DNA from: Flammeovirga pectinis
GTDB taxonomy: Bacteria; Bacteroidota; Bacteroidia; Cytophagales; Flammeovirgaceae
Assembly: GCF_003970675.1 (NCBI RefSeq)
Contig: NZ_CP034564.1
Span: 1-60,977 of the forward strand
Direction of reading: 5' to 3'
DNA: 60,977 nucleotides
In this document: one piece after another, positions 18,487 to 47,497 of the stretch
How the letters are laid out: the number at the start of each line of letters is the position of its first letter
How positions within the stretch are numbered: the first letter of the stretch is position 1
Notes under the pieces: model-generated
Seen by the model: only the letters and a program-made list of their open reading frames with translations
The model's database searches: none
Told to the model about the DNA's origin: nothing
Program-made: the position numbers and the translations under genes

Positions 18487-18582
18487 ATGAAAATAGAGAA
18501 AGAAAAAAAGCTAACAGGAAAAGTAAATATCGAAGTCATTGGCTTAAATATTAAAGGGGGAGTTGGTGATTTATGCGAGTGA
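18487..18582 (+). CDS. possible 31-residue peptide
   Basis: A short frame begins MKIEKEKKLTGKVNIEVIGL, contains IKGGVGD and ends CE. It stands alone after an AT-rich leader. It may be a genuine small peptide or the start of a lost gene. Confidence 0.25.
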   Translation: MKIEKEKKLTGKVNIEVIGLNIKGGVGDLCE

Positions 18583-19240
18583 TACACTTTCGGGGGGTGG
18601 GCTTGGTAAGAAATGTTTGAACGGGAACCGTTTTTATTTCAGTTTACTACAAGCATACTCGAAGAGCTTTTCGTTAGGCGAGTCAGAGAAAGTGGCTGTT
18701 GTAATTTTGAATTTGTGAGGTACGAACAATTTAAAAATTATCTACTGCCATCGTGCTTAGCAAAAGCAGATAGAAAAAGGATTGAAGGCTTTCAAATTTA
18801 CAACTGAGATTATTTTTCTATTGGTTTTTGTGGTGGCGTTGGATCAATGGAGGGGAGGAAACAATCTAAAAAATAGTACACAATTATCAATTTTAATAGT
18901 TGCCTGGTTTTGGATTGTGGAGCGTCGGACGTTAGAAAATGGCGGGTCAGCCGAAAAGGGGGCGAAAAGGCATTTATGACTTTTTGCCCCTTTGCGTGGC
19001 TATTTAACATAATGCCCTTATAAAAAATAGCCGTAGGCTTTTTATAAGACGGCATTATGTTAAGATAGCTTAGGTCTTATATTGGAATACCTAGCTATCA
19101 TTATTCTTTTGTTGTTACTAGACGAACTCCATCAAGAAAATGAGCGACGAATGTACCCCTCCGCAAACGGAATGGAGATGCAGGCTTTAGCCAAATGGAA
19201 TGAAGTGAAGCTTGGTGTGGGTGCGTGAGGAGGGAATAAA
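18583..19240. other. GC-richer region without a convincing gene, includes the attC-like hairpin
   Basis: Several short open frames occur on both strands, but none has a convincing start, domain or codon pattern. Composition is less AT-rich than its neighbours. The strongest feature is the long hairpin at 18999-19069. Confidence 0.5.
18999..19069. repeat. 71-bp hairpin resembling an integron attC site
   Basis: Nested arms GCTAT/ATAGC, TTAACATAATGCC/GGCATTATGTTAA, CTTATAAAAA/TTTTTATAAG and AGCC/GGCT pair with a few unpaired bases on one side only (AC and G). Imperfect stems with extrahelical bases, together with a RYYYAAC-like box (ATTTAAC) and a near GTTRRRY box (GTTAAGA), are traits of attC sites. 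No integrase gene is in the window. Confidence 0.5.
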
Positions 19241-19834
19241 TTATTTTTCTTGTATTAAAGATTGAAGATATTTCCTCATTGGTTTTGAAAAGTGTAGTTT
19301 CCAATCTTCATCAGAAATCAGATTACTTTTAGCATTATTACAAAAAGGACAAGCTAGAACAGAATTATCAAAAGTATAACCTTTATTTGAATCTAACTTT
19401 TCTATTTCTAAACTTCCTTTTGAACGCTTCTGTAAATTATTTAAAGTCATATTCCCACCTCTTAAATCAACAATTTTCAGAACTTCTTCCTGGGTAATGT
19501 CGCAATAGTGACAAGAATTATTTTGATTATTAAACCATTCAATTAGTGTTTTTGGGTCTGCGAAAAACTCCTTTCGATATTCATTAAAATACTTTTGGTA
19601 AAGGTGGTGGTATTCTTTAAAGCCATTGATTACTTTTTCAAGTTCTTTTACTGATATAGATAACTCATCACAGTAAAAATCATCTAGTCTCTTATACTTT
19701 GATTTAGCTGTTCCTACAGACCAATTCTTAAGATCATCAATTTTGTAGAATTCATTAATTTTATGATTGTACTTTAACTCAAAGTATCTCTTTTCAATAG
19801 AAGTCATATTCATTTTAGTTATAATGTTGTCCAA
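19241..19834 (-). CDS. HNH-type endonuclease
   Basis: Protein of 197 residues. The C-terminal half carries an HNH/zinc-knuckle pattern: CHYC near residue 109, a GGNMTLNNLQ and LEIEKLDSNKGYTFDNSVLA core, then CPFCNNAKSN. The four cysteines probably bind a structural zinc, and the nuclease motif lies in EIEKLD...NSVLACPFCN. The start at 19834 overlaps the deiminase gene by 16 nt; internal Met codons at 19813 or 19807 are alternatives. It is the last gene of a three-gene minus-strand set. A defence role is possible but inferred only from company. Confidence 0.78.
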   Translation of the reverse strand: MDNIITKMNMTSIEKRYFELKYNHKINEFYKIDDLKNWSVGTAKSKYKRLDDFYCDELSISVKELEKVINGFKEYHHLYQKYFNEYRKEFFADPKTLIEWFNNQNNSCHYCDITQEEVLKIVDLRGGNMTLNNLQKRSKGSLEIEKLDSNKGYTFDNSVLACPFCNNAKSNLISDEDWKLHFSKPMRKYLQSLIQEK

Positions 19835-20652
19835 GTAATACAGTTCAAGACACCTCCATGCTTGACAATATTTGTCATATCAATTTGCTCAATTTTACTT
19901 TTATAATGAGGGTAGAGGCTCCTTATCTGCTCTAGAGCTAAAGCATCTTCATCAATATTAAATTTAGGAAGTAGAATTAGATCTTTTGTTTGTAAGAAAT
20001 TCATATACGCCCAACTCCTTTTATCAAGGACATTCACTTCATACTTTAAAAATTCAGCACTTAAGTTCGTCTTATTTAAAGCGGACACTATTGATTTATC
20101 ATTCTCATAAAAAGAGTTTACTAATACTGTATCTTCATTGATAAACCGTAACATACCATCAGTATGACCATATTTATCAAGAGGATCTTGTGGTATTGTA
20201 ATGATAGTTTCAATTTCAAATAAAGAATGTAACTGATTCATCAATTCCTTTTTGGTATAATCATTCCGATTTTCGTGAAATATTTTATCTGTCATTATCA
20301 GAGTTCTTTTTGACTTCACCATATTTCCACCATCAAGTATGATATCCGCTTTTACGGTAAACAATCCTATCTCATCACATATAATATCAGGGTAGGATTT
20401 TAGGTTTCTATACCCTTTTCTAGCTCCTTGTAAATAATCAGGGTCATATCTAAACTCCACAAATTTACTATTAGAAACCTGTACAGGCATATAATCTCTA
20501 GCCCAAATATCTTTAGTTTTAGGTAATAATGTTAGTGGTACTTTATGTCTTTCTAATATTGCTTTTAGTTCGCTAAAAATAGGTTGGAACTCATCTTTTT
20601 TTGATAAAATATCAGAAACATAAACTTTATTTACTTCAAAGTCAGTAACCAT
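19819..20652 (-). CDS. agmatine/peptidyl-arginine deiminase-family enzyme
   Basis: Guanidine-modifying amidinotransferase-fold enzyme of 277 residues, somewhat shorter than typical agmatine deiminases (about 350). Conserved motifs are in order: KDIWARDYMPVQ, ILDGGNMV, YGHTDGMLRF and a C-terminal HGGVLNCITW with the catalytic Cys. The usual reaction is hydrolysis of agmatine or arginine guanidino groups to ureido products plus ammonia. It has no signal peptide, so it acts in the cytoplasm. It overlaps the HNH gene and follows an unknown gene by 2 nt, unlike the polyamine-pathway context expected for housekeeping AguA. Confidence 0.82.
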   Translation of the reverse strand: MVTDFEVNKVYVSDILSKKDEFQPIFSELKAILERHKVPLTLLPKTKDIWARDYMPVQVSNSKFVEFRYDPDYLQGARKGYRNLKSYPDIICDEIGLFTVKADIILDGGNMVKSKRTLIMTDKIFHENRNDYTKKELMNQLHSLFEIETIITIPQDPLDKYGHTDGMLRFINEDTVLVNSFYENDKSIVSALNKTNLSAEFLKYEVNVLDKRSWAYMNFLQTKDLILLPKFNIDEDALALEQIRSLYPHYKSKIEQIDMTNIVKHGGVLNCITWTTL

Positions 20653-20654
20653 GA

Positions 20655-21068
20655 TTAGACACCTTCTACATTACCAAAATGATCATTAACTATTCCTTTC
20701 AACTTAAGGTACAACTCCTTATACTCTTTGATTTTTTCTACATCATTAGGATTCTCTAATTCAGTATTAAGAAATTGATATTTGAATTCCTTCAATGTAT
20801 CCAAAAGAACTAGATATAAATCATTATGATCATTTTTAGGAAGATTTAGTTCTATTGCATCATGATCACCACTTTTCTTTTCTATTTCAACACTTAGTCT
20901 TTTTTGAGCTACATTTACTGAGCTAGATTTCTCTTTAAAAACCTCATTTTTGAAGTTTTTATAATACTCATTCATTACATATTCATTCTGTAAGGTAATG
21001 ATGTATTTACTTAATATAGGTCTAAGTTGAACAGCTATTTTAATATTCAAGACTTTTAATTTACTCAT
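20655..21068 (-). CDS. unknown cytoplasmic protein, first gene of the deiminase-HNH operon
   Basis: Charged, helix-rich protein of 137 residues without signal peptide or known motif (MSKLKVLNIKIAVQLRP at the start, acidic LENPNDVEKIKEYKEL near the end). The stop is 2 nt from the deiminase start, so the two are one transcription unit. Confidence 0.65.
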   Translation of the reverse strand: MSKLKVLNIKIAVQLRPILSKYIITLQNEYVMNEYYKNFKNEVFKEKSSSVNVAQKRLSVEIEKKSGDHDAIELNLPKNDHNDLYLVLLDTLKEFKYQFLNTELENPNDVEKIKEYKELYLKLKGIVNDHFGNVEGV

Positions 21069-21118
21069 TAGTTTATTGATTTATTTGAATAGATTATTAC
21101 TAAATTGGTTGAAAAACA

Positions 21119-21679
21119 TCAAATCTCCAAAACCCCTCTCCTATACAATTCCATTACAATATCTGCTTCATGAAAAGCATCATCTGCTCCTCTATGCAGT
21201 TCGGTATAATCATTATCAGGAAAGAAAAAATCATAAGCTTCTTCTACTTTTGGCCATTTCCATTTTTGGTAATAATCATTCCAAGATACCTTACAAATAT
21301 CTGTTGATAGCTCCATTGGACAAGGAAGTTTTGAAGGAAATTGAAAACGTCTACTTTCTAAGAAATCAAAATCGAAAGATCTATTATATGCTGTAGCTCC
21401 TGTTCGGTACTGATTAAAAATATCTTGAAGTTGGCTTCGGTATACTTCCAGGTTTTTGCTGTGTCTAATTTCCTCCACAGTCATAAAACCATTACTTACT
21501 ATCCAACTATTTTGAACACTCTCCAAAGTCATTCCTTTCTCGTGGCAAACTTCATCAAAGATTATCTCTTTAGCTCCTGTTTGTAGATCTAATTCCACGA
21601 TGCCAATTTCGGCAATATGGCCACCTTGATTGAGGAAGCCTGTTGTTTCAATATCTACTACTAGTATCTTATTTTCCAT
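21119..21679 (-). CDS. DEDDh 3'-5' exonuclease (DnaQ-like)
   Basis: Protein of 186 residues with the DEDDh exonuclease motifs: Asp/Glu in VVDIETTGF, Asp in YNRSFDFDFLE, and His/Asp in HRGADDAFHEADI. This family removes nucleotides from the 3' end of DNA or RNA. It lies on the same strand just upstream of the unknown-deiminase-HNH operon with a 50-bp gap, so it could be co-expressed. No polymerase or helicase domain is attached. Confidence 0.85.
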   Translation of the reverse strand: MENKILVVDIETTGFLNQGGHIAEIGIVELDLQTGAKEIIFDEVCHEKGMTLESVQNSWIVSNGFMTVEEIRHSKNLEVYRSQLQDIFNQYRTGATAYNRSFDFDFLESRRFQFPSKLPCPMELSTDICKVSWNDYYQKWKWPKVEEAYDFFFPDNDYTELHRGADDAFHEADIVMELYRRGVLEI

Positions 21680-21830
21680 TTATCAATCTGTTAGTTTCTA
21701 TAAAAATCAATTTATGAAAAAAGGTACAAATGATTATTCACTTGTACCTTCAATTTTAAATATATTTCACCAACCATAATTGGTTCTAAACATAAATGGA
21801 GAAGCATAAATAAATTCTTCTTCTACTATC

Positions 21831-22679
21831 TTAAGAAGATAAACGATCAGAAAGCCTTAAATCTGAAATCATCTGCTTTATCAAAACCGGATTACTCTTC
21901 ACCATCTTGCAAAGCTTGGCAATATTTCTTTCACCACCTTCCCAAGCTTGATACAACCTTTCTTCTTTTGTACCTGTATTAAATAAAAAACCAATAGATT
22001 GATTACTTCTTATCTGATGATGATTATTCTTGTTTTCAAGCTTGAAATTAAGGTTTCCTTCTTGTTTAATCTCTTGAGATAAGCTTGTAGTATCAAGCTT
22101 GAACTCTTTGTTATCTATCGCTTTTGTTACTTCAATAGATGCTAAAATTGATAACACTAAAACAATTATAGAGTAGAAGGAGAACATCTCTGTTTTAGCT
22201 TCTGCTGTTTCTTGTTGATTTACTAATTCAAGCTTAGCTCCCTTGATTTCGGCTTGAATTTCCTTGATTTGTACTTTAAGACTTCTTCTTAATTCAACCT
22301 TGGCATAATGATTTGAAACTCCTGTTTGGCTTAACTGATTTCTCAAATTAACCAATTGTGACCCCAGAACTTCGACCTTAGTATTATCTACTTCAGATGT
22401 TCTAATTTTATGATTCAGACCATAGTATTCCATCACAACAATAGACGCACAGAACGTTAAAGCTAAAATGATATTGGAAGAAAATTTCTTAGTAGATAAA
22501 ATTGATTTCGCAGAATCAAAAATGATAGAGTGGGTGATATAGGCAATCACAATGGAGACACCCATAGCTACTTTTTCATCAATCCCTAAGAACATTAGAA
22601 AGTGAGTAACTACATACATCGAATAAAGAGAACACAATCCGATGATTAATAAATACGGAATATTTTGTACTTTTGACAT
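21831..22679 (-). CDS. membrane protein with coiled coil and cytoplasmic helix-turn-helix-like tail
   Basis: Protein of 282 residues, start chosen at MSKVQNIPYLLI so that the first hydrophobic segment is N-terminal. Three or four transmembrane segments (two near 8-60, one near 70-90, one near 165-185) surround a coiled coil (about 105-155). A cytoplasmic tail ends in a possible winged-helix-like unit (GERNIAKLCKMVKSNPVLIKQ). It lies directly behind parB on the same strand, so it may belong to the plasmid maintenance operon. The family is not recognised. Confidence 0.6.
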   Translation of the reverse strand: MSKVQNIPYLLIIGLCSLYSMYVVTHFLMFLGIDEKVAMGVSIVIAYITHSIIFDSAKSILSTKKFSSNIILALTFCASIVVMEYYGLNHKIRTSEVDNTKVEVLGSQLVNLRNQLSQTGVSNHYAKVELRRSLKVQIKEIQAEIKGAKLELVNQQETAEAKTEMFSFYSIIVLVLSILASIEVTKAIDNKEFKLDTTSLSQEIKQEGNLNFKLENKNNHHQIRSNQSIGFLFNTGTKEERLYQAWEGGERNIAKLCKMVKSNPVLIKQMISDLRLSDRLSS

Positions 22680-22768
22680 AATTATAACTTTGTATAAGGT
22701 TATGAGGGGGTGCATACGGGTTTGGCGATTTGTATTGGCTCCCTCTTTTTTATATTTGAATTTTTATT

Positions 22769-23683
22769 CTAAAGGTTGGCTTTCAATTCATTAATTAAAT
22801 GAATCATATTATCTAGCTCTGTTTTCGCTAATTCTTTATTTCCTTTTGATAGAGAGTTCTTAAATGATAGATAAGTATTATCTAAAGTATTAATTTTTCC
22901 TTTTGCTGTAATTTCATTAGAAGAATCATTCAATTTTTCTTGAAGAGATGTTTCTTTTAAATTGACTTTTGGAGCTTTTTCAACTTTCGCTTTCTTAGTA
23001 ATCTCTTGATATGCACTATGAATTGATCTTTCTCCAGAGCGAACCAGGTCTTTTAATTCTTCAGGAGCTTCTCTGATAATCTTAAGAGCCTTTGATGTAT
23101 TTCTTCTTGATGTATTGGCTGTATCTGCAATATTTTGAGTATGATCTATCTTTTTAGGGCTTGCACTTTCTTCCTCACTTCGAAAGTGCAAATTTGCACT
23201 TTCGTTTTTTGAAGCATTTTGCACTCGCTTTTCTATACCAAGTTTTGCATTAAAACTCAATAACTTTTCTGATAATTCAATACGCTCAAAATCCTTTAAG
23301 TTTCTACGTCCTAACTGATTTTTAAGCATCCATACTTTTACCTCATCTAAAGTATTTAGTGAAGTAATGTATTTAACCGGAACAGTAGGAGAGTTCTCAG
23401 AAGCTTTATATCTATGGTGACCATCAATCAAGAGATTATCATGACCAGGAATATTAACCAACAAAAGTGGCTCTCTAATTCCTTCAGTTTCTATAGATTC
23501 ACGAAACAATTCAGCTTCTTCAACATCTTGTTTTCTGATATAAGATTCTAACTCTGGAAGAATTACGATTCCATTTCTTTCTATATAGTTATTACGATCA
23601 ATAGAGGCTTCATTTTGGGCAGCCCTATCGAATACTGTTCTATTCTTTTTCTTACGGTTCGTATTTATATTAAGATTTGCCAT
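22769..23683 (-). CDS. parB: ParB-family partition protein
   Basis: Centromere-binding partner of ParA, 304 residues. The ParB/Srx N-terminal domain is visible as IREPLLLVNIPG and LLIDGHHRYKAS (near residue 85), followed by WMLKNQLGRRNLKDFERIEL. A helix-turn-helix region (TQNIADTANTSRRNTSKALK) is followed by a coiled C-terminal dimerisation part. The gene starts 23 bp after the parA stop, in a parA-parB operon. Only copy of its kind in the window. Confidence 0.88.
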   Translation of the reverse strand: MANLNINTNRKKKNRTVFDRAAQNEASIDRNNYIERNGIVILPELESYIRKQDVEEAELFRESIETEGIREPLLLVNIPGHDNLLIDGHHRYKASENSPTVPVKYITSLNTLDEVKVWMLKNQLGRRNLKDFERIELSEKLLSFNAKLGIEKRVQNASKNESANLHFRSEEESASPKKIDHTQNIADTANTSRRNTSKALKIIREAPEELKDLVRSGERSIHSAYQEITKKAKVEKAPKVNLKETSLQEKLNDSSNEITAKGKINTLDNTYLSFKNSLSKGNKELAKTELDNMIHLINELKANL

Positions 23684-23706
23684 GGATAGTATAATCGTTA
23701 AGGTTA

Positions 23707-24570
23707 TTAATTAGATAAACCAGTGTATTTCTCCAGCTCATCCATAAATTTATCAAATTCTTTTTTTATAGATGCATTTGTAAATGAAGTAGATAAATCA
23801 TCTGTTCTACTATACTCTACAGAATTACTAATTACGTTGGTTAGTACATTTATACCTTCAAACTCAATATCCTTTAAAATCTTTACTTCGTTTGCTCTCT
23901 TATTAACCATTGTAGCAACAGCTACCGCTTTGGTAGGTAACTTTCCTTGCTCACTTCTATGAGCATTTGTTTCAACGATCAATTCCTCAATAAACTCAGT
24001 GCCTGAAATAGACATACGTGTTAATTGGAAAGGAACAATTAGAATATTAGACATTTCAATAATTGCAGATAAGAACGTAAAAGATTCAAACGAACCTGCT
24101 GTATCAATAATAATAAAGTCGTATTCCTTAGAAAGATTGACCAATTGAGTTCTGATAGAAGATTCCTTACTCACAAATTTCTTTGTATGATCAAAAGTTA
24201 CCAAATCAACTATACTATCGTCAGAATGTACATTTGATAATGATTCCTGAATATCTGTATCAAACGCAAGCACCTTTTTGCCCGTTAGTAATTTTAATTG
24301 TTTTGATATATGTATTGCCATAGTAGTCTTTCCACTACCACCTTTAGTATTTGCTAATGTAATTATGGTACAACGCCTTTTCATTAGTGTATCAACACCT
24401 ATTCCCAGTACGTCCGAAATTTTAGAAAGGTCAGTCATCCCGACATCAGAAGTTCCTTGTTCTATTCTCTGGTAAGTTGCTAAGGAAATTTCTGATTTCG
24501 CCGCAACTTCTTTTTGAGATAGTCCTTTTTCTTTTCTAAAATATTTAATGTTATCTATTAATGTACTCAT
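23707..24570 (-). CDS. parA: ParA-family ATPase with N-terminal XRE-type HTH
   Basis: Plasmid partition ATPase of 287 residues. Residues 1-62 form an HTH_3 DNA-binding domain (SQKEVAAKSEISLATYQRIEQG). This is followed by the deviant Walker A box KGGSGKTT near 73-80, Walker A' in FDTDIQ and Walker B in FIIIDTAG. Fusion of an HTH to ParA usually means the protein represses its own promoter. Four regular repeats stand in the promoter (24586-24760) as likely operators. Confidence 0.92.
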   Translation of the reverse strand: MSTLIDNIKYFRKEKGLSQKEVAAKSEISLATYQRIEQGTSDVGMTDLSKISDVLGIGVDTLMKRRCTIITLANTKGGSGKTTMAIHISKQLKLLTGKKVLAFDTDIQESLSNVHSDDSIVDLVTFDHTKKFVSKESSIRTQLVNLSKEYDFIIIDTAGSFESFTFLSAIIEMSNILIVPFQLTRMSISGTEFIEELIVETNAHRSEQGKLPTKAVAVATMVNKRANEVKILKDIEFEGINVLTNVISNSVEYSRTDDLSTSFTNASIKKEFDKFMDELEKYTGLSN

Positions 24571-24585
24571 ATTATTACTTATAAT

Positions 24586-24760
24586 AACTCATATATGATT
24601 TATATATATGCAATATAAGCCATACTTTTTCATAAAAACAACTCAAATATGACTTTTATTTGTGAATAAAGTATCATATATTGCATTCATAACTCAAATA
24701 TGATTTATGAATCGTATAGTAATTTCAATTTATAACCTACTTAATAATCAAATATGATTT
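24586..24760. promoter_or_regulatory. four phased repeats upstream of parA (operator and/or parS)
   Basis: Copies of AACTCAAATATGATTT stand at 24586-24601, 24640-24655, 24691-24706 and 24746-24760, spaced 51-55 bp. The regular spacing and position fit binding by the ParA HTH domain or ParB. Confidence 0.7.
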
Positions 24761-24889
24761 CTTTAATAAGAATTAAAGTTATAAAGAGATTAATAAATAT
24801 TAGAAGTATTAATAATATTAAGGAAGTTTGGAAAATTACTATAACTAATTGATTTACAGTTTATAACAACTAAATATTACTATTTAAAT

Positions 24890-25085
24890 GTGTATAGACT
24901 AACGAAATTTAATGTACTATATGACTAATAATAGTGTATAGTTTAACGTAAAGGCAAGTATTGTTTAACGTTGAGTGTACAATTTAACGCTTAAGATGTG
25001 TAGATTAACGTTAATGTGTATAAAACAACGTATTTAATATATGGTTTACTTGCATTATGCGTATCGTTTTCGTTAGTTTATACAC
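24890..25085. promoter_or_regulatory. replication origin iterons
   Basis: Six direct repeats of the type GTGTATAGTTTAACG start at 24890, 24934, 24956, 24975, 24998 and 25016. One inverted copy (CGTTAGTTTATACAC) is at 25071-25085, next to the rep start. Iterons plus an inverted half-operator before rep is the standard layout of Rep_3-type plasmids: direct copies for initiation, inverted copy for autoregulation. Confidence 0.85.
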
Positions 25086-25108
25086 ATATAGGATTCAACT
25101 GAAGTATC

Positions 25109-26245
25109 ATGAATGCACAGGATATAGTAAAAAAACATAGTAAACTCATATTGTACAACGAAACAAAGGGTTTATCAGCAGTGGAACAGAAACTGTTTAT
25201 CTATTGTATTGCTAAAGCAGTAAGGGCAAATGATATAGATACGTTTCATTCTATTAGCATTCGTGAATTTACAGGAAAGAAAAACCCTAGTATATATGAC
25301 TATCGTAAAGCAAAGAAAGCTCTTTTTGCATTACAACAAATGAAGCCACTGTATGTTGAATTAGATGGTAAGTTTAAGTCTATAGTGATCTTTCCAACCC
25401 TTCAAGGGGATGCTAGGAGCATAGACAACGATAAAGACATAGACAAGATAGAATTAGCCTATAAGCTTAATGATGAGTTAAAACCGCTTATTATAGACCT
25501 TAAGGAAGCATATACAGAATACCTATATTCTACAGTGAGTAAGATGAAGTCTTCTTTTGCAATTAGACTTTATGAGATCCTTTTACAGCAAGCTAAGTTT
25601 AACAAGCCGTATTCTATTACAGTAGATAACCTTAAGATCAAATTTGGCATTCAAGATGTTAAAACTTATGCTACGTATTCTCAGTTTAAACGTGCAGTTA
25701 TAGAAAAATCTATAAATGAAATTAATGAGAAAACAGACATTAGTGGGTACTATGAAGAAGAGAAGCAAGGTAAAAAGGTGTATAAACTGACGTTCTTTTT
25801 TACGTTGGATAGTACACATAAAGATGAGGAAGCAGATATTTTAGCACTATCACCAGAAGAATCACTTGTTTATAATGTATTACCTGACGAAAAGACAAAA
25901 CAGACTTACTTAAAGCAAATAGGGAAACTACCTAAAACGTCAAGTAATACTAAAGATGTACAAACTGACGAAATAAAAACAAAGAAAGCTCCAACACAGC
26001 AAACTCTCTTTGATGAAAGTACACCGAGTGTATCACCAGAGTTTAAAGAGAAATTAGATAAACTGTCTATGAGGCTAGGGGAGATTGGTTTAGAGAAAAG
26101 TGTTATAAAAGTAGCTTTGAATAAATATACTGAGAACCCTCAATGGAAAATTTGGCCAGAAGTGAATAACGTAAGAATGGCTATTAAGGATGGTAAAGAT
26201 TTTCCTAATAAGCATACTTTGAAGAAAGTGATTAATGAGAGTTGA
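25109..26245 (+). CDS. repB: plasmid replication initiator, Rep_3 (RepB/RepE) superfamily
   Basis: Iteron-binding initiator of 378 residues. Two winged-helix domains are visible: WH1 in residues about 10-125 (LSAVEQKLFIYCIAKAV, FHSISIREFTG) and WH2 in about 140-250 (KMKSSFAIRLYEILLQQAKF, KFGIQDVKTYATYSQFKRAV, ISGYYEEEKQGKKVYKLTFF). A Lys/Thr-rich linker and a C-terminal helical extension follow. Iterons lie immediately upstream. It is divergent from parA across the origin region, defining the plasmid core. Confidence 0.92.
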   Translation: MNAQDIVKKHSKLILYNETKGLSAVEQKLFIYCIAKAVRANDIDTFHSISIREFTGKKNPSIYDYRKAKKALFALQQMKPLYVELDGKFKSIVIFPTLQGDARSIDNDKDIDKIELAYKLNDELKPLIIDLKEAYTEYLYSTVSKMKSSFAIRLYEILLQQAKFNKPYSITVDNLKIKFGIQDVKTYATYSQFKRAVIEKSINEINEKTDISGYYEEEKQGKKVYKLTFFFTLDSTHKDEEADILALSPEESLVYNVLPDEKTKQTYLKQIGKLPKTSSNTKDVQTDEIKTKKAPTQQTLFDESTPSVSPEFKEKLDKLSMRLGEIGLEKSVIKVALNKYTENPQWKIWPEVNNVRMAIKDGKDFPNKHTLKKVINES

Positions 26246-26793: not shown

Positions 26794-27075
26794 TCAGAGA
26801 TAGTACAATTGATTCAATGACACAAGTATAATACATTGATTTTTAGCTTCAAACCACTGTATAATGTTAGGAGTATTTTTAGTAAAAAAAACTTCATCAA
26901 AGATTAAATTCTCTTGAAATTTCCCTCTCCATTTTTCTAAAATCCATCTGCAGAACAATCTGAGACTTGATTCTTTTAAAGGCTTTTTCCTACCCCACCT
27001 TTTTGATTTGCTATTGATATAACCATTTTTTATTAGCGAAAACTTGAAAAATACATACAATAAAATATGTATCAT
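26794..27075 (-). CDS. uncertain 93-residue ORF
   Basis: Basic, Trp/Lys-rich frame (KSKRWGRKKPLKESS, WILEKWRGKFQEN) with no recognised domain. It starts just inside a set of 16-bp tandem repeats. It may be a gene fragment; support is weak. Confidence 0.25.
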   Translation of the reverse strand: MIHILLYVFFKFSLIKNGYINSKSKRWGRKKPLKESSLRLFCRWILEKWRGKFQENLIFDEVFFTKNTPNIIQWFEAKNQCIILVSLNQLYYL

Positions 27076-27077
27076 AT

Positions 27078-27157
27078 CTTTTAATCCTTATTTCTTTTAA
27101 TCCTTATTTCCTTTAATCCTTATTTCTTTTAATCCTTATTTCCTTTAATCCTTTACT
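27078..27157. repeat. five 16-bp tandem repeats
   Basis: Units of CTTTTAATCCTTATTT follow each other with only C/T changes. They are followed by two longer units (TATGTAAATACTTATTTAGG type) at 27159-27216. They lie between the plasmid core and the hairpin-armed element. Confidence 0.8.
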
Positions 27158-27330
27158 TATGTAAATACTTATTTAGGGATACATTTATTTATGTAAATAT
27201 TTATTTAGGGATGTGATTGTTTATGTAATTATGTTTGATGTATAATAGTTACAACTAAATTTAATTAGTTAATTTTGAATTATTAAAATAATAATGTGAT
27301 ATACAACAATTAATAATCGAGATAAAATTA

Positions 27331-27605
27331 TTAATTATAGTCGTTTTATAAGTCTATCGACACGACTAAATTAATTATATTATAATATTAAGATGTGATT
27401 AAATTATAGTCGTTTTATAAGTCTATCGACACGACTAAATTAAATAGCAAGCTATGTTTATGTGGTAACAAAAACTCAATGAATTGAGATTTTCGTGTTA
27501 CCACATAAACCCGTTTCGTTTAATACTCACTGGCTTGTTCCTCTCGGAAGGTTGGGGACATTCGCAATTCTGCTCATTCATAAATGATTAGTTTAAGTTT
27601 AATCA
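27331..27605 (+). repeat. left arm of the hairpin-armed element
   Basis: Small hairpin repeats at 27331-27373 and 27400-27443 (TAGTCGT/ACGACTA stems). The large hairpin has arms GTTTATGTGGTAACA at 27456-27470 and TGTTACCACATAAAC at 27496-27510, with an inner CTCAAT/ATTGAG stem. The conserved block is 27511-27605. Confidence 0.85.
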
Positions 27606-27749
27606 TTTTAGAAATTAAAACTAGAGCATGAAAATCATTTTCAGGTCTATTTTTATTAGAATTCAAGATTAATAAAAATAGAATAGAGTAAAAGAGAGTA
27701 AGGTCTTTATGATAAATATGGTTTTCCTCCTTACAAAAATTGAGAGGTA

Positions 27750-29321
27750 TTAAATTTTGTATTCGTAGTGATCCATATCATTTGCTCTTAATTTAAAAAT
27801 TAGGTTAATTACGTTTTGAGGAATAACAGGTATTTTATACGACCACTCTATGTACTTCCATCCTAAATCTTTACATTTTTGTTTTTTTTCAAAATCATGA
27901 AGTATATTTTTCTGAAGTGAATCAGACGAGTATAGTCCATTAATATCTTTGTAATGTTGAATACCTTGATATTCGATAACAGTTTTTAATTTTAAAATAA
28001 CTATATCAAATCTCATCTCTTTTTTAGTTTCATCGAAATAAAAAAGTCTAGGTATATCTTTATCAAAATATGTTTGTTTAGAATATTCTTCTGGGAGGTA
28101 CTTTTTAATCAACTTGTATAATTGTTTTTCAGTTTTATTGTTATTTAACGAAGAAAAATCTCTCATATTAAGGCCACAATTTGGGTAATGATACTCTAAA
28201 AGGTTTTTCAAATGACTACCTTTCTTATTATGATACTCTAATATTGATCTTCCAAAATTATTTTGGATCATATGAATAGAAATAATAGCAAGATCTTTGT
28301 CAGGCTGTAACCCATAAATATCTAGTAACCAATTAAGGTAAACTTTTTGATTATCTTCATTTGACCACCAGTTAGCATTAACCTTTACAGATTTAAATTT
28401 AAAAAGGAAGAAATTATATTTTGGAAATAGTATTTTCACAAATTCAATAAGATCTTCATTAACCAATTTTCTAAAAAAATGGAAACACTTGCAATCTTTA
28501 ATTATTTGATAGCTTATTTGATAAAAATCTTCAGGTAATAACCATCCCATTTTTTGAGTGATTAATAATTTAGACTGATTTATCATTTCATCAATAGATA
28601 AAGGTGCTACAGAATTTTCTTCAAACCTTATCCTTAATTGATGGATGAATTCTTCAATATCATTATTACAGATTTCTTTAACATAGCATTTAACTCCCTT
28701 TATTGATAATACATTAGAGTAAGAGATCGTCTCAAACCCTTTGTAAAAAGTTTGTTTCGACAATTCAGAATAAACATTTTTCATAAAAGCATTTACATGA
28801 AATTTATTTATCCACCATTTATATTGATTTTTTGGAAACTTCCATACTTTCAAATTTTTAAATTCTTCTCTAAACAAAGACATAATTAAAAGGACAGGAG
28901 AACACCTATACTTCTTTAAAAGGCTAAAACCACCATAATATTCTTTTTTTGTACCTTTAAAATGAGTACCAATAATGAAACTTGTTTTTAGATATTTGTA
29001 TAAATTTTCCTCAACAAAATCTATTCTATTAAGTTGGAAGATGTATAAAATAAACCTCTTCTCATCCTCTATATTCTTAAATCTAATTTTATTATTAAGT
29101 TTATGGAAGTTCCAGAATTCAATATGATAATCAGGGAAAGAGTAGGTAATAGCCTTTGCAATTGATTGATTAAAGAATCTAGCAAAAATTGTTGAACATT
29201 TTTTAAAAATTTCTGCACCAGTAATACTTATAAGATTATTCTTATTTAATTTCTCTCCTTTTTCTTCTAGAATTTGTGTTGCAGCCTTTCTTATAGCAAT
29301 ATGATGAGATTCTAATTTCAT
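27750..29321 (-). CDS. large protein with C-terminal PD-(D/E)XK-like nuclease domain
   Basis: Protein of 523 residues. The C-terminal about 110 residues look like a Vsr/DUF559-type nuclease fold: KTEKQLYKLI, RFDIVILKLKTVIEYQGIQH with the D...E-x-Q core, HY after it, and KKQKCKDLGWKYIEW at the end. The N-terminal 400 residues hold imperfect helical repeats ending in FPDYHIEFWNF, FPKYNFFLFKF and YPNCGLNMRDF, probably DNA-binding units like those in some homing-type nucleases. It is divergent from an XRE controller gene. No methyltransferase is adjacent, so it is either an unusual restriction-type or a mobility nuclease. Confidence 0.62.
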   Translation of the reverse strand: MKLESHHIAIRKAATQILEEKGEKLNKNNLISITGAEIFKKCSTIFARFFNQSIAKAITYSFPDYHIEFWNFHKLNNKIRFKNIEDEKRFILYIFQLNRIDFVEENLYKYLKTSFIIGTHFKGTKKEYYGGFSLLKKYRCSPVLLIMSLFREEFKNLKVWKFPKNQYKWWINKFHVNAFMKNVYSELSKQTFYKGFETISYSNVLSIKGVKCYVKEICNNDIEEFIHQLRIRFEENSVAPLSIDEMINQSKLLITQKMGWLLPEDFYQISYQIIKDCKCFHFFRKLVNEDLIEFVKILFPKYNFFLFKFKSVKVNANWWSNEDNQKVYLNWLLDIYGLQPDKDLAIISIHMIQNNFGRSILEYHNKKGSHLKNLLEYHYPNCGLNMRDFSSLNNNKTEKQLYKLIKKYLPEEYSKQTYFDKDIPRLFYFDETKKEMRFDIVILKLKTVIEYQGIQHYKDINGLYSSDSLQKNILHDFEKKQKCKDLGWKYIEWSYKIPVIPQNVINLIFKLRANDMDHYEYKI

Positions 29322-29380
29322 AGTAATATTTCTGTTTTGTACTATATATGGGGTAATTTGAATTTACTAAAAAAATACAT

Positions 29381-29400
29381 TTGTACCAAATATGGTACGA
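29381..29400. promoter_or_regulatory. palindromic operator over the XRE start codon
   Basis: GTACC-AAATAT-GGTAC lies in the 70-bp divergent intergenic region, and its right arm contains the ATG of the XRE gene. Controller proteins of restriction systems bind such boxes. The start codon inside the box suggests a leaderless or autorepressed transcript. Confidence 0.55.
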
Positions 29401-29607
29401 AGCAATACTCAAATACTGATTAAGCAGATAAGGCTTGAAAAGAAAATGACTCAGCATCAACTTGCTGATTTCTGTGATTTACCTAGAAGTTATATTTCAA
29501 AACTGGAGGGAGGAACAACTCACCCTACTTTGGAAATGCTATTTAGAGTTTGTAAGGGTTTAGAGATTAAACCATCCTCTTTTGTTAAGAGGCTTGAAGA
29601 ATTTTAA
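29392..29607 (+). CDS. XRE-family controller protein
   Basis: Small HTH_3 protein of 71 residues (KKMTQHQLADFCDLPRSYIS, LEGGTTHPTLEMLFRVCKGL) of the size and shape of restriction-modification controller (C) proteins. It is transcribed divergently from the nuclease gene, with the operator in between. It probably times nuclease expression on entry into a new host; this is inferred from family and layout. Confidence 0.82.
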   Translation: MVRSNTQILIKQIRLEKKMTQHQLADFCDLPRSYISKLEGGTTHPTLEMLFRVCKGLEIKPSSFVKRLEEF

Positions 29608-29754
29608 GACATTTATTTTTATATACATCACAGGAAATAAAATGACTAAAAGGACGATATAAGTATCTGAAACATCACAACGATACTATACTCTATTTTT
29701 ATTGATGTAATTACAATAGATCTGAAAATATTTTTCTTGCTCTAGTTTTAATTT

Positions 29755-30032
29755 TTAAACTGATTAAGTTTAAACTAATTAATTACAAGTGAGCAGTATT
29801 GCGAATGTCCCCAACCTTCCGAGAGGAACAAGTAAGTGAGTTTAAAACGAAACGAGTTTATGTATATACACAAGAATCTCAATTTATTGAGTTATTGTAT
29901 ATACATAAACATAGCTTGCTATTTAATTTAGTCGTGTTGTTAGACACATAAAAGACTATAATTTAATCATCCTTTTATATTATAATATATTTAATTTAGT
30001 CATGTCGTTAGACTCATAAAATGACTTTAATT
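29755..30032 (-). repeat. right arm of the hairpin-armed element
   Basis: Mirror of the left arm. The conserved block is 29755-29855. The large hairpin has arms GTTTATGTATATACA at 29856-29870 and TGTATATACATAAAC at 29896-29910. Small hairpin repeats lie at about 29923-29965 and 29989-30032. Four adjacent stem positions differ from the left arm, and each change is matched on the partner strand. Confidence 0.85.
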
Positions 30033-30185
30033 GACAATTCCCATTTATGTTACTTATCGTTGCAAATCATACAATATTCAAAAAAATAGTAAATAATATT
30101 TAGTTCACCCGCGTGGTTCTGATTCACTTTTGGTGGAAAGCTTTTTTAACATTTTAGCAGATAAGATATTATTACTTTCGTTATT

Positions 30186-30871
30186 ATGATATCACTCTCT
30201 ACCTTTTCTAGTTTTGGTTCATTTGAATTTGATGGGTTCTCTGTCGATGAATCTAATATTGTAAAGAAAAGAATCATTCATTTAAAATCTATATCTCCTT
30301 CTGGAAAATGTCCTTGTTGTCATACAGAAAGTAATGCGAAACATAGCTATTATGTACGTAATCTCAAAGATTTATCCTGGTCAGATTCTAGTGTTGAAGT
30401 TTCCTTAAAAGTGAAAAAATTCTACTGTAAAAATATTCATTGTTCGAGGAAGATTTTTACTGAACGTTTTACTCAAGAAATACAACCTTATGCCCGTTCT
30501 ACAACTAGATTACAACATCAATTAATGGTTTTAGGACTTACAATAGGTGTACGAGCATTACAACGAATATCATCACATCTTCAATTAGAATATTCCACTT
30601 CACCTTTGTTGTGTTTTGCTCATTTGTTTCAAGTGAATGACACTAATGAACTCACTATTAATTGTTTAGGTATTGATGATTGGGCGTTTAAAAAACAAGT
30701 TTCCTATGGTACTATTTTAGTGGATTTGGAAACTAGACAACCCATAGCTTTACTTCCTGATAGAAAAGTAGAGACCGTAAGTAAGTGGTTATTAGCACAT
30801 CCTGAAATTAAAATAATTACCCGTGATGGGTCCAGTAGTTATGCATCAGCAGCAACAAAAGGAGCTCCTCA
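30186..30871 (+). pseudogene. ISL3 transposase, 5' half
   Basis: The first 228 codons, with the zinc-finger CPCCHTES and GIDDWAFKK regions, are followed by the transposon at SAATKGAP. The 3' half resumes at 35506. Confidence 0.92.
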
Positions 30872-30995
30872 CACCCACATTCAAGATAACCCACAAACCC
30901 GCCATAGCTCTATTTCACCCTTAAACTAACATTTAAAACAATCACCCACTGTTTAAAATATAAACAGTGGATAAAAAGTAAATATTGCATTATAA

Positions 30996-31787
30996 CTAGA
31001 AATCAATACTTGTGTAATCGTCATTATCTTTTTGAGACTTATACCTATCAATTTCCAATTGCAGGAATTTTTGGTATTGATTTCGCATAAAATCATAAAA
31101 ATATTGAATGTTATTTTCCTCTCTGGTTTTTTCAAGACTTTGGATATAATCTAACTTGTCTTCTTTAAAGACTACTGACATTGGAAACCCAAAAAGCTCC
31201 TGTAAATAGTTCATTATCAATCGAGAGGTTCTGCCATTTCCATCATAAAAAGGGTGAATACTTACCAATTCAAAATGGGTATAAAATGATAGGTTTATTT
31301 TATCATCATCTGATAATTTTTTCTCTAGTTGAGTATTAATCGTTGTGCAAAGTTTGTCAATAAGTCCTGGTACTTTCTGATAATTGACAAAATATCTTTG
31401 TCCTGCATATACACTCCCTTTTCTATATTCTCCTTTACTACTATCAATGGTACCTAAAACAGTATTGTATGAAGTCCCTGTTGAATGCATGATATGAGCA
31501 TTAATTTCTTGAATAAACTGAGCGTTAATTGTTCTCTTTTTTGACACTTCTTCCTTAATGAAAAGTAGCGCTTTATGGTGATCTGTTACCATTTGAGAAT
31601 GGATAAATGGTTTTCCTTTTGGTGTCAATCCTTCATTTAAAAGTAATGTAGCATCATCTAATGTTAAGGTTGAGCCTTCTATTTGGGTACTATGAGCTGT
31701 AATTGTGTAATTATTAAATTTCTCATAATCAATAATTTTAGCTATACCTATATTTTTATACTCTTGTATGGTTTCTAGTAAAGTCAT
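30996..31787 (-). CDS. Fic-domain protein (AMP-transferase type)
   Basis: Protein of 263 residues. The Fic core HPFYDGNGRTSR is complete, so transfer of AMP or another nucleotide to a target hydroxyl is expected. An N-terminal STQIEGS segment matches the (S/T)xxxE(G/N) inhibitory motif, marking an auto-inhibited Fic with the inhibitory helix in the same protein. It is the passenger of the Tn3-type transposon, between its left end and the resolvase, and ends close (4 nt) to the resolvase stop, so the two are co-transcribed. Confidence 0.9.
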   Translation of the reverse strand: MTLLETIQEYKNIGIAKIIDYEKFNNYTITAHSTQIEGSTLTLDDATLLLNEGLTPKGKPFIHSQMVTDHHKALLFIKEEVSKKRTINAQFIQEINAHIMHSTGTSYNTVLGTIDSSKGEYRKGSVYAGQRYFVNYQKVPGLIDKLCTTINTQLEKKLSDDDKINLSFYTHFELVSIHPFYDGNGRTSRLIMNYLQELFGFPMSVVFKEDKLDYIQSLEKTREENNIQYFYDFMRNQYQKFLQLEIDRYKSQKDNDDYTSIDF

Positions 31788-31790
31788 TTT

Positions 31791-32426
31791 CTAACTGTTT
31801 AAAACTTTTAGTGCGGCTTCTCTTAACTCTCCTTTTGGTCCAACATATCTATACAGTGATTGTCTGGAGATATTTAACTCTTTACAAAGTTCCGTAACTA
31901 TTGTTTTTGGATCTTTCATAGCAGCTTCTGCTAATCGAACTTGAGCCTTAGTGAGTTGAAATTTCCGACCTCCTATTAGTCCTCTTGCACGTGAAGCTTT
32001 TAAGCCTGCAACCGTTCTCTCTCTAATCAAATCTCGCTCAAATTCGGCAAGAGCTCCAAAAATACCAAAGATAAATTTTCCACTTGGTGTTGTTGTATCA
32101 ATATTTGCACCCTTTCCGGTGAGTACCTTAAACCCTATATTTTTCTCGTCTAGGTCTTCAACTGTTGAAATAAGATGTTTTAGATTTCTCCCTAAACGAT
32201 CCAATTTCCAAACGACAAGTGTATCTCTTGGTCTTAGTGCTTTTAAGCAAGCATTTAGGCCTTCTCTTTTGTCATTTTTCCCTGATGCAAAATCTTCATA
32301 AATATGTTCTTCATTTACACCTTCGCTTATCAAGGCATCACGTTGCAATTGCACGACCTGACTTCCATCGGCCTTAGAAACTCTTGCATAACCAATTTTT
32401 AATGATGTATTTTTTGAATCTGCCAT
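31791..32426 (-). CDS. tnpR: serine resolvase of the Tn3-type transposon
   Basis: Resolvase of 211 residues, start placed at MADSKNTSLKIGYARVS so the catalytic serine is near the N-terminus. Conserved WKLDRLGRNLKHL, AEFERDLIRERT and a C-terminal helix-turn-helix (TELCKELNISRQSLYRY) are present. It resolves cointegrates at the res site expected just upstream. It is divergent from tnpA, as in Tn3-group elements. Confidence 0.92.
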   Translation of the reverse strand: MADSKNTSLKIGYARVSKADGSQVVQLQRDALISEGVNEEHIYEDFASGKNDKREGLNACLKALRPRDTLVVWKLDRLGRNLKHLISTVEDLDEKNIGFKVLTGKGANIDTTTPSGKFIFGIFGALAEFERDLIRERTVAGLKASRARGLIGGRKFQLTKAQVRLAEAAMKDPKTIVTELCKELNISRQSLYRYVGPKGELREAALKVLNS

Positions 32427-32572
32427 ATTGTCTTTAGAACAATGTGTCTTACAAACCACCGTTTACGAGACACTATAAAATTGGTAGTAAATATAAGATA
32501 TTACTGTCACTTATTTTGTATTTTATACTATGTAATGTAAATAGTTTTATCGTTAAGAAAAATGACACTATT

Positions 32573-35457
32573 ATGATAATTAAACAACAAACTATCTATC
32601 CCCATTTTAAAAATTCATATTCCAAGGAAGAACTGAAACTATTTTTCCTGTTAGCGATGATGATAAAATATTTGCCTTACATAAAACAAGGAGGTATAAC
32701 CATCTTCTAAAACTCATTTTATTAAAAGTATTTGATTATCTAAACTACTTTCCTACCGATTTAAATGATATTCCTCAAGTTGTTATTGATTATTGTGTTC
32801 AGTCTATGGACAATAAAGAAAAAGATATTGTCGATAAGAAATTAATTTTCACAACCTCAACAAGGTCGTATGAACGGATAAGAGAACTTATAAGAAAAAA
32901 GAGAGGTAAATTTCTTTTCAATAAAGAGGCGGAAGTAGAAGTCCTTCAATATTTAGATGAAACCACCCCAACAATGAGTCATCCTTCAGACCTACTAAAT
33001 GCTTCAGTAGAAAAAATACTTGATTTAAATTTTACGTTCCCTTCTTTTGAAAGGCTGTCATTATTGGTTTTATCAAAAAGGAATGAATATCAAGAGAACG
33101 TTTATAATGCTGTTTACCGATCTATTTCAGCTCATAACTTTACACAATTAAATAGTTTATTAGTCGTACAAAATGAAAACTATAAATCTGAATTTACAAA
33201 GTTGAAAGAACCACCAAATAAACCCAATTTATCCAATATACATGAATGGATCGGACGATATAATAACCTATATGCCTTTCAAGAAGTATTCCTTTTTCTT
33301 AAAAATATTCCGTTCACAAAAATAAAACAATTCTATGCTGAAGCGGATGCTTTTGAGCTATCAGAAATACTAGATACCACGATTAAAAGACGTTATACAT
33401 TACTTATTTGTTTCTTGTACATCAAACAGATGCAAGTGAAAGATACATTGATTGAGATGTTTATTAAACGTGTAAATAAAAATATCACCAATGCAAAAAA
33501 TAAACTTGAAGAATACAAAAAAGAGCACAGAAGGAACGAGGAAAAAATGTTGCAACTACAAGAGCAGATTTTTACTATTTCAATAGAAACAAAGAACAAT
33601 CCGTCTTTACACCATCAAAAACTTCACGATCTATACCATAGGAATGGTGGTCTTGCTTATTTAAAGCAAAGAAATCAATTTCTTAACCAGTTTCATAACG
33701 ACAACTTTTACCCTTATCTACTCCAATCGCATAAATATTATGGTAAAGCGTTGAGAATGATAATTGATAAAGCTGAAATTTATTCCGTAAATGAGAATTT
33801 ATTGAATGATTGGAAAAAATTTAAACGTTTCAGGAACAAACGCACGAACACTATCGATGAAGATTTTGATTTATCTTACCTCACAAAGAAATGGTTGAAA
33901 GTAATTATTATATCTGAGGATAATGGTCAGATAAGTTATCATAAAAAGCACCTAGAAATCGCCTTGATGTATTATTTATCTGAAGGTTTACAATCCTTTG
34001 ATTATTTTGCAAAAGGGTCGTTAGAATACGCCAATACAGATGAGTACCTTGTCTCTGATGAAGAATTAACACATGAATTACCCATCATCATTCAAGATCT
34101 TCAATTACCTGAAAACGGTAAACAGATGGTGCTACATTTACAAAAAGAAATGAAAGATAAAATCTTTGATTTTGATCAACACTTTAAAAAAGAAACCTCT
34201 TCGTACTATAGAGATGACAAAGGATTTCATCTCAAAAAATCAAGTAAGAGAAAAAGAAATAAAGAGGTAGAAAAGATTCAGCTCATCATTAAGCAAAAAC
34301 TACAGAAACACAACCTATTAGATATGATGAATAGGGTAAATCATCATGTTTCCTTTACAGATAATTTTCAATTTATAACAGGTACATTATCCAAAACAAA
34401 AGATCCTATAAGTAACTATATTTATACTTTATTTGCCTATGGTGTAAATATTGGCCCGACCTATATGTCGTCACATTGCAGGCATAAAATTAGCCAAAGA
34501 ACATTATCAAGAATCAACAAACAACATATCAGCAATGAAAACCTACAAAAAGCGATGCGTACGCTAATAAATTTCACCCAATCATTTGACATTATCAAAA
34601 AATGGGGAAATCAAGCTACTGCTGTTGCTGATGGAACCCAAATTCCTTTGTTAGAAAATAATATGTTTGGAGAAAGACATATTAGATATGGTGGTTATGG
34701 AGGAATAGCCTATCATCATATCAGTGATACTTACATTGCCTTGTTCAGTAAATTTATAGTCTGCGGAATTTGGGAGGCCATTTATATTCTAGATGGCCTC
34801 ATACAAAATCAATCATCACTGGAGATAAAAAATATTCATGCTGATACACAAGGTCAAAATGAACCTGTTTTTGGACTTTCCTATTTATTAGGTATTGAAT
34901 TAATGCCCAGAATAAGAGATTGGAAACTCATAGAGGGATACTACCATGAAATGCTAAGGATTGTTATTTCAATAAAAAAGGGTAGAGTTATACCGTCATT
35001 AATTTTAAAGAAACTAGGTATTCATGGACGAAAAACAAAAATTTATAAAGCTTTTAGAGAATTAGGGCGGGTTCAAAGAACCTTGTTCTTAATAGATTTT
35101 ATTAGAAACAGTGCACTTAGGTCAAATATCACTAAATCAACAACAAAGATAGAGTCTTTTAATAGTTTCTGCGATTGGATCACTTTTGGTGGAGAACAAA
35201 TAAAATCAGGAGACCCTATCGAACAAGAAAAGAGAGTAAAGTACACAATATTATTAGCTAATATTATTATGGCTCATAATATCATTGATCTCACAAGGGT
35301 CATTAATGAATTAAAGGAAGATGGGTTAACCATCACAGATGAAATGATTGAAAGGTTAAATCCTTATATGAGGGAACATATTAGAATTTATGGTGAATTT
35401 GTATTAAATCAAGATAATATTCCGAATAAAAACATCGATAAAAAATTAATCATTTGA
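32573..35457 (+). pseudogene. tnpA: Tn3-family transposase with a frameshift in its N-terminal domain
   Basis: The long frame from 32806 (883 residues) has the DDE core: AVADGTQIPLLENN, NIHADTQGQNEPVFG and TTKIESFNSFCDW. Family members are near 960-1000 residues. Upstream, MIIKQQTIYPHFKNSYSKEE starts at 32573 in another frame. After a shift in the T5 run at 32642-32646 the sequence SDDDKIFALHKTRRYNHLLK continues in the main frame. One lost or gained T thus breaks the N-terminal DNA-binding domain. A shortened protein from 32806 may still be made. Sequencing error cannot be excluded. Confidence 0.85.
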
Positions 35458-35505
35458 TGCTTTTTTGAGCTATGGCGGGTTTATGGGTTATCTTGAATGT
35501 GGGTG

Positions 35506-36417
35506 CCTCAGGCAGAACAAATAAGTGATAGATGGCATCTATTAGATAATTTATCAGCTGTAATTAGAAGCTATTTAGAAGGATATAAAAGTGATATTAG
35601 AACAGTTTGTGAAAATATTTCAGCAAATGAACACGAAAAATTGAAGTCTACTCTTCTTTCTCAAAAGATTGAATTACCTGATACTAAATACTCTGCATTA
35701 TTTAAAAAAGTAAAAGAACTACAAAAAGAAGGTAAATTATCACAAAGGGTAATTGCTAAGGAATTAGGTATGAATAGAGATGCAGTCGGAAGATATTTTA
35801 AGTTGGATGCTTATCCACGTAATTTTTCTGAGCCTATAGATGAAAAAAAATATAGCTCTTTTATTCGCAAACTTTGGAAAAATGGTGAACGAAGTGCCAA
35901 GGAGATATGGCGAAAAATAAAAGAGAAAGGATATTCAAGAGATTATCCTCATTTCTATAGATATGTTCAACACCATGTCAAAACCCATGTAGATATTCCT
36001 CCATTAAAAATTAAATATCCCACTATGAATCAGGTAAATAGATGCTTATTTCTTCATAGTAACGAAAGAACTACGGAAGAATCTATATTTATAGAAGCAC
36101 TTTATGATAAAATTCCTCACTTAGAAAAGTTACGTAAACGCTATTTTGAATACCGTAATATCTTCTTATCTAAGTTGCCAGATAAATTACCAACTTGGTT
36201 AGTATCAGCTAAAGAATTGTCTATTGAAGGTCTAATTAGATTAGTTGGAGGAATTGAAAGAGATATGGAAGCTGTTAAAAATGCTGCTATTTATGAATTA
36301 ACAAATGGTCAAGTTGAAGGGCAAGTCAATAAATTAAAAATGATAAAACGTAAAGGGTATGGAAGGGCAAAATTACCCTTTTTAGAAAAACAGATGATGA
36401 TATTAAATGAGTTATAA
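35506..36417 (+). pseudogene. ISL3 transposase, 3' half
   Basis: Continues the gene broken at 30871, with the helix-turn-helix QKEGKLSQRVIAKELGMNRD and the C-terminal domain intact to LEKQMMILNEL. Unlike copies B, C and E it has no internal stop or shift. Confidence 0.92.
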
Positions 36418-44581: not shown

Positions 44582-44593
44582 AAATGCAAACCA

Positions 44594-47223: not shown

Positions 47224-47299
47224 AGAAATTGTGCACAAAAAAGCGTTAACCGAAAAGCTTTAATAGAGTAGGTGTTTTTTAATATTAAACTTTTTAAAA

Positions 47300-47455: not shown

Positions 47456-47465
47456 TCCCTCCTAA

Positions 47466-47497
47466 GGGCTGTATAATTCTATACAGCCCATTTTCTC
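47466..47497 (+). terminator. hairpin terminator after the peptide gene
   Basis: Perfect 10-bp stem GGGCTGTATA/TATACAGCCC with an ATTC loop, then a T-rich tract. It probably reduces read-through into the modification genes. Confidence 0.8.

Follow-up and report, generated by a model that had tools for sequence, protein, structure and literature searches.

A nuclease and regulator gene pair between long, hairpin-bearing inverted arms on a Rep_3 plasmid of Flammeovirga pectinis, tentatively read as a transposon-like cassette

What kind of genetic unit is formed by two genes set between long, inverted, hairpin-bearing arms on a small bacterial plasmid? The question is raised by the window analyzed here, a stretch of 60,977 bp that makes up the entire third contig of the 6.68-Mb, three-contig genome of Flammeovirga pectinis. 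Its G+C content is 29.44%; for strain L12M1, the published description gives a matching circular plasmid of 0.06 Mb with 29.4% G+C (PMC8653839). An earlier note on this DNA had proposed a new class of mobile or selfish element whose arms are recognized as hairpins. The inverted arms, their internal palindromes and the gene content are observed. The reading favored here, at a probability of roughly 45%, is a non-autonomous, transposon-like cassette of 2.7 kb on a Rep_3 plasmid, and it is favored because the inverted homology frames just two genes. The cassette is an orphan, and the claim of a new hairpin-recognized mobile element is unproven. The compact nuclease-and-controller unit between long inverted arms stands as the earlier note described it, but the further steps to selection on the fold and to a new mobile class do not.

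The cassette comprises the following features, apart from the hairpins themselves:

27326–27690, plus strand: left inverted arm, in inverted alignment with the right arm
29684–30039, minus strand: right inverted arm, in inverted alignment with the left arm
27429–27463, plus strand: 35-nt block identical between the arms (right copy 29903–29937)
27534–27568, plus strand: 35-nt core identical between the arms, CTTGTTCCTCTCGGAAGGTTGGGGACATTCGCAAT (right copy 29798–29832)
27750–29321, minus strand: gene for a 523-aa nuclease-like protein with a C-terminal homing-endonuclease-like domain
29392–29607, plus strand: gene for an XRE/HTH_3 regulator of 71 aa, transcribed divergently from the nuclease gene
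29383–29398: 16-bp palindrome GTACCAAATATGGTAC, a possible operator, which overlaps the XRE gene at its start; terminator-like on the minus strand in the scan
27357–27386, plus strand: sigma-70-like promoter match (11/12) directed inward across the hairpins, with a right counterpart at 30008–29979 (10/12); a lead only

The arms had been placed at 27331–27605 and 29755–30032, each about 275 bp long; they are indeed inverted copies with the same internal order, but they are longer, reaching the limits given above. Their identity is about 83–84.8% (84.8% across 356 aligned columns, 83% across 365 nt), and the divergence of about 15% speaks against a fold-back artifact of assembly. From the outside inward, each arm carries two small hairpin repeats spaced 68–69 bp apart, a main hairpin of 15-25-15 pattern, the 35-nt core and an AT-rich stretch, and the inner arm ends lie about 60 bp from the stop codon of the nuclease gene and about 76 bp from that of the XRE gene. 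A single identical run of 35 nt is unremarkable (P 0.12), whereas two such runs are unusual (P 0.0035; 20,000 permutations). Coding arms were ruled out by the 37 differences in 245 columns, which split 13/12/12 over the codon positions, and the only other open reading frame of at least 60 aa between the arms, one of 72 aa, overlaps the start of the nuclease gene. No second inverted pair with copies 80 bp or longer, 300–7000 bp apart and at E 1e-10 was present in 45 stretches (872,463 bases, with 1-kb overlaps between stretches) drawn from the window, the first 381 kb of the genome's own 1,411-kb second contig, all of the sibling plasmid G005:C4 and the first 343 kb of the 640-kb contig G005:C3. 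The arms have the form of the terminal inverted repeats of insertion sequences, MITEs and non-autonomous transposons, imperfect and about 360 bp long, and are presumably terminal.

Judged by sequence, the C-terminal domain of the nuclease-like protein is homologous to homing endonucleases and would constitute a homing endonuclease catalytic domain. The protein matches PHROG 9084 (E 1.6e-10) and PHROG 559 (E 4.5e-7), and this domain matches proteins of 41 phage records, nearly all from Staphylococcus and several annotated as homing endonucleases, as well as proteins on two Shinella plasmids. In a five-sequence alignment, the residues D, E, G, Q, H, D, K and C are invariant across the domain. 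The remaining N-terminal part of about 390 residues is without convincing relatives; repeat modules, suspected there, found no support in self-comparison (z 0.7–1.6) or in searches with a 125-residue part. For the whole protein, no Pfam, NCBIfam or PADLOC match was obtained at E up to 1, no relative with a solved structure was found, and structure prediction without an alignment gave a mean pLDDT of 32.7. The cargo had been described as only a PD-(D/E)XK-like protein and a controller. A nuclease-like and an XRE gene are both present, whereas the PD-(D/E)XK label is a putative one, taken from the motif.

Searches with the whole nuclease returned 4/395 genomes of the phylum and 4/341 of the order, its own included each time, the others being partial matches, among them L163 and L164 from the search of the order. 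PHROG 559 matches, mainly to the catalytic domain, occur in 157 of the 395 phylum genomes; none of six such loci has an inverted pair at E 0.01 in the flanks fetched, and an inverted pair (E 1e-6, gap >200 bp) is missing from 25 of the 26 viral loci that encode a related domain. On one viral contig (L161), three inverted pairs were seen (for example, 1191–1258/4029–4094), two of them overlapping the nuclease reading frame; these inverted similar segments are perhaps paired nuclease genes.

The XRE protein matches HTH_3 (E 2.9e-14) and the PADLOC profiles HTH_VI (1.3e-14) and Control_protein (5.9e-11), and resembles the control proteins of restriction-modification systems, among other XRE families. 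Its divergent orientation and the 16-bp palindrome at its gene suggest that it may regulate itself. XRE relatives occur in 3/18 family genomes, including its own. One of these (L089) lies, by eye, among unrelated genes. In the other, from the same genus (G006; L090, 1474–2769), an HNH_4 nuclease gene (E 1.9e-5) comes immediately after the XRE gene; thus, the pairing of an XRE gene with a nuclease occurs in the genus, with another nuclease type. This 3.2-kb locus has no long inverted arms, its longest inverted pair being 30 nt at 80%. Further upstream in the same locus, a 22-nt perfect inverted repeat lies at 326–369.

The structural argument of the earlier note concerned the hairpins, which are distributed as follows:

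27338–27368, plus strand: left outer small hairpin repeat (TAGTCGT...ACGACTA)
27407–27437, plus strand: left inner small hairpin repeat, a direct repeat at a spacing of 69
29997–30027, minus strand: right outer small hairpin repeat, with one pair compensated (G-C to A-T) and the terminal pair lost
29929–29958, minus strand: right inner small hairpin repeat, with one base deleted and one more pair broken
27456–27510: left main hairpin, a 15-bp stem with a 25-nt spacer containing an inner CTCAAT/ATTGAG stem
29856–29910: right main hairpin, in whose 15-bp stem four pairs differ but are compensated; one inner pair is broken

Each arm does contain a perfect 15-bp stem around a 25-nt spacer, and the four adjacent differences within that stem are all compensated, as had been noticed. 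The statement that every change is compensated fails beyond it. When the whole structure is drawn on the left arm, it comprises 52 pairs, of which the right arm leaves 43 unchanged, compensates five and breaks four. Four of the five compensated pairs form one contiguous block of the main stem, and the fifth lies in the outer small hairpin. The small hairpins were said to keep pairing, which holds for this compensated pair but not for the terminal pair of the right outer copy or for two pairs of the right inner copy, one lost with a deleted G and one changed to C-A; a GTGT/ACAC pairing, noticed by eye, perhaps makes up for these two in part. The fourth broken pair, A-T in the left arm and T-C in the right, belongs to the AAAA/TTTT helix next to the inner stem. 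None of the 52 pairs shows, between the two arms, a one-sided change that retains pairing.

By chance, eight substitutions in 30 stem positions would form four complementary pairs with a probability of about 3e-6, and the probability that 19 random substitutions in 132 nt alter the stem but leave it perfectly paired is 0.0012. All four main-hairpin strands fold beyond shuffled sequences (z -3.8 to -5.5). The small-hairpin region folds better than shuffles in the left arm (z -3.25) and no better in the right arm (z -0.72). Since only two related copies of the arm exist and the four stem pairs are contiguous, the covariation possibly reflects as few as two events, and with n=2 it is too small a basis for power in an R-scape-type test. 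The earlier conclusion that compensatory change means selection on the folded form therefore does not follow from a contiguous four-base block accompanied by four broken pairs; a template switch or a changed dyad-symmetric protein site explains such a block as well as fold selection does.

Relatives of the arms were sought in several collections. The own genome holds no further copy: besides the two arms, the search recovered the palindrome matching itself and a chromosomal match of 27 nt (L004), which is without a hairpin and was taken as chance. An arm DNA search matched 1/18 family genomes, namely its own and none of the 17 others, and the core with up to three mismatches occurs in 1/395 genomes of a class sample, again its own. 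A covariance model of the arm gave matches in 6/18 family genomes at E up to 1, the best outside its own genome having an E of 0.0076; at E up to 0.01 and with stricter filters, it matched 3/291 order genomes, which are its own, G013 and G821. Both outside matches (E 0.0076 each) lack a hairpin and lie inside reading frames, of 356 aa in G013, where 23/25 core letters agree, and of 580 aa in G821. Other weak matches (E 0.17–0.92) came from the family genomes G003, G005, G013, G014 and G016. Collections of plasmid and phage records contained no homologous arm, and viral contigs gave no match to the 22-mer core, to the hairpin pattern or to an 18-mer. Five viral 17-mer matches cover only 17–21 nt of the core, one of them (L094) with a separate 28-nt, 86% piece. 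Three 18-mer matches in the species-genome collection consist of those 18 core letters only; one of these loci (L043) shares a further 21-nt, 86% piece with the right arm elsewhere. The viral and species-genome scans used exact patterns, which diverged arms could escape, and the collections searched may lack records close to the window's genome. Thus, the arm core and the 15-25-15 pattern, whose wider occurrence in Bacteroidota the earlier note had suggested looking for, led to no homologous arm in the sampled family, class and order genomes or in these collections.

The plasmid itself carries a Rep3 initiator gene (profile match), and its type is Rep_3. A ParA-type ATPase with an N-terminal HTH_3 domain is encoded at 23707–24570 and conserved in the sibling plasmid G005:C4; a ParB-like gene, without a Pfam match, was assigned by eye. 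Transposases of the ISL3 and Tn3 types are also present. The ISL3-type gene (Pfam DDE_Tnp_ISL3, Zn_ribbon_ISL3) lies at 30186–30929 and 35497–36417, apparently split by a Tn3-family unit that has its transposase at 32806–35457, its resolvase at 31791–32459 and, as cargo, a Fic/DOC protein at 30996–31787 (Pfam Fic, E 4e-17). Directly outside the left arm, tandem repeats of 16 bp (TTTAATCCTTATTTCC-like) and 32 bp occupy 27074–27215; the repeats at 24885–25090, upstream of rep, are more like initiator iterons. Farther along, at 43934–51369, a run of genes resembles a peptide modification and export operon, with a C39 peptidase-ABC transporter (45109–47223) and a LanC-like protein (48444–50015), both from Pfam matches, and with TlpA-like and glycosyltransferase-like genes assigned by eye; a DUF805b RNA motif (RF02914, 44.8 bits) lies at 47240–47274.

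Direct signs of movement were likewise sought. Between the arms, open reading frames and profile searches revealed no transposase, the Y1 HUH type included, and no methyltransferase or further frame of such size. No further copies and no autonomous partner with the same ends were found in its own genome or in the collections searched. The flanks share only AT-rich words of 7–8 nt (longest 8) and no target duplication, with the limit that the exact ends of the element are uncertain and that a 2-bp duplication would escape notice. The only sibling compared, G005:C4, is 94% identical over 18553–26239 and differs entirely across the cassette segment. An empty site, which the earlier note had also proposed to look for, was not found there, since the homology of the backbone stops at the rep gene. 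In the cassette's place, beside rep, the sibling carries genes for the N- and C-terminal parts of HipA, and this place therefore exchanges modules. The HipA genes have no long inverted arms, their 2.1 kb containing five inverted pairs of 14–19 nt and none that reaches 80 bp. Beside the sibling HipA gene (L041, 10122–10153), an AT-rich piece of 32 nt matches the inner end of the arm at 84%; this was taken as chance. The variable segment is bordered by ISL3-type transposase sequence on the window plasmid and, on the sibling, by about 118 bp that match the end of this sequence; thus, IS-driven shuffling could account for the arrival of the segment. The proposed new class of mobile element is left with no second copy, target duplication, empty site, transposase between the arms or homologous arm.

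As all mobility tests made were negative, recognition of hairpins is kept as a rival to the cassette reading. The unit would then be mobile or selfish, its arms recognized in their folded, single-stranded hairpin form, as happens in IS200/IS605 and attC systems, and their pairing would be under selection. We consider this unlikely. The stem is perfect in both arms despite the four-base change, and the main hairpins fold beyond shuffles; the non-palindromic spacer letters, mostly alike in both arms, agree with it as well but are expected to do so at 85% identity. Against it stand the number of copies, two and related, the 4/52 broken pairs, the contiguity of the compensated stem pairs and the want of one-sided changes that preserve pairing. 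Furthermore, IS200/IS605 ends are not inverted copies, unlike these arms, and the attC core pair is absent: in a scan for RYYYAAC ... GTTRRRY, neither motif occurred in the left arm, and one occurred twice on a single strand of the right arm, forming no pair. About as improbable is a main stem that serves as a double-stranded, dyad-symmetric protein site for a regulator, partition protein or recombinase, present in two inverted copies, with the block change being a change of half-site. Both halves, which start 40 bp apart, change together and stay exact complements, as would be expected of a homodimer site; however, no matching protein was identified, and conserved blocks outside the dyad adjoin it.

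Still lower odds attach to the remaining explanations. The arms might encode structured RNAs, for example antisense or guide-like ones, transcribed inward from conserved promoters and acting on the cassette. Promoter-like matches (11/12 and 10/12) do occupy equivalent places in both arms, pointing inward over the hairpins, but such equivalence is expected of homologous arms, and the region is not enriched in these matches (21 versus 20.2 ± 4.0 in shuffles). Bacteroidota promoters also differ from the sigma-70-like consensus used, and Rfam provided no family in the arms at gathering scores, only five weak matches below them. It is no more probable that one or two rounds of template switching in the palindrome first created and then repaired the stem, leaving covariation without selective meaning. 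The contiguous four-base block fits such an origin, and multibase compensatory changes have been attributed to template switching, with evidence from RNA genes (PMC8794818); perfect stems in both arms amid about 15% divergence are unexplained by it unless switching recurs or selection helps. A stronger form of the selfish-element proposal, with hairpin-recognized long inverted ends and a homing-type nuclease under XRE control that itself cuts to mobilize or home the unit, is to our minds equally doubtful.

In the cassette reading, by contrast with these rivals, the two long terminal inverted repeats enclose what appears to be a homing-endonuclease-like nuclease and a divergent XRE gene. An enzyme acting in trans would most likely use the arms as DNA ends or as sites of recombination, and the main hairpin would offer a dyad-symmetric place for binding. 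The XRE protein probably controls the nuclease, as C proteins control restriction enzymes; the comparison with restriction-modification goes no further than analogy, because the arms enclose no methyltransferase. The nuclease, if active, probably attacks rival DNA or favors retention of the plasmid. These proposals draw on one locus in one strain.

The cassette can be compared with several known systems. As with MITEs and other non-autonomous transposons, it has inverted terminal repeats without a transposase of its own; unlike them, it is single-copy, contains genes and is without a detected target duplication. A second comparison is with dif modules, whose sites stand in inverted orientation. 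In the dif-like scan, using a generic consensus that may not be the host's, the best XerC/XerD 11-6-11 candidate in the arms scored 12/19, at the same place in both, versus 14–15/19 for the eight best in the window. Thus, the cassette, with arms of about 360 bp, has no standout dif-like site, although it shares with the dif modules of Acinetobacter, as described in two reports, a Rep_3 plasmid and exchangeable gene modules (PMC13141974; PMC6449649).

Among the open-license papers listed on restriction units bounded by inverted repeats, elements with double hairpins, terminal repeats bearing hairpins, dif modules and homing endonucleases, the combination of a nuclease, an XRE gene and hairpin-bearing inverted arms was absent, and its parts resemble two further systems. 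Restriction-modification units bounded by inverted repeats, reportedly described by Furuta et al. in 2010, are summarized in PMC3874152. The cassette resembles them as a plasmid-borne nuclease-like gene and a control-protein-like regulator between imperfect inverted repeats, and differs from them in its lack of a methyltransferase and target duplication, its long hairpin-bearing arms and its homing-type nuclease domain. With the free-standing homing endonucleases of phages (PHROG 9084, Staphylococcus phage), the nuclease shares its C-terminal catalytic domain; unlike them, it sits on a plasmid between inverted arms, has an XRE gene as its partner and is extended by the N-terminal part of about 390 residues. 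Should the hairpins be recognized as such, the unit would add a hairpin-recognizing system of DNA mobility. Should it move, it would represent a nuclease-plus-regulator cassette without its own transposase, linking homing endonucleases to restriction-like selfish modules.
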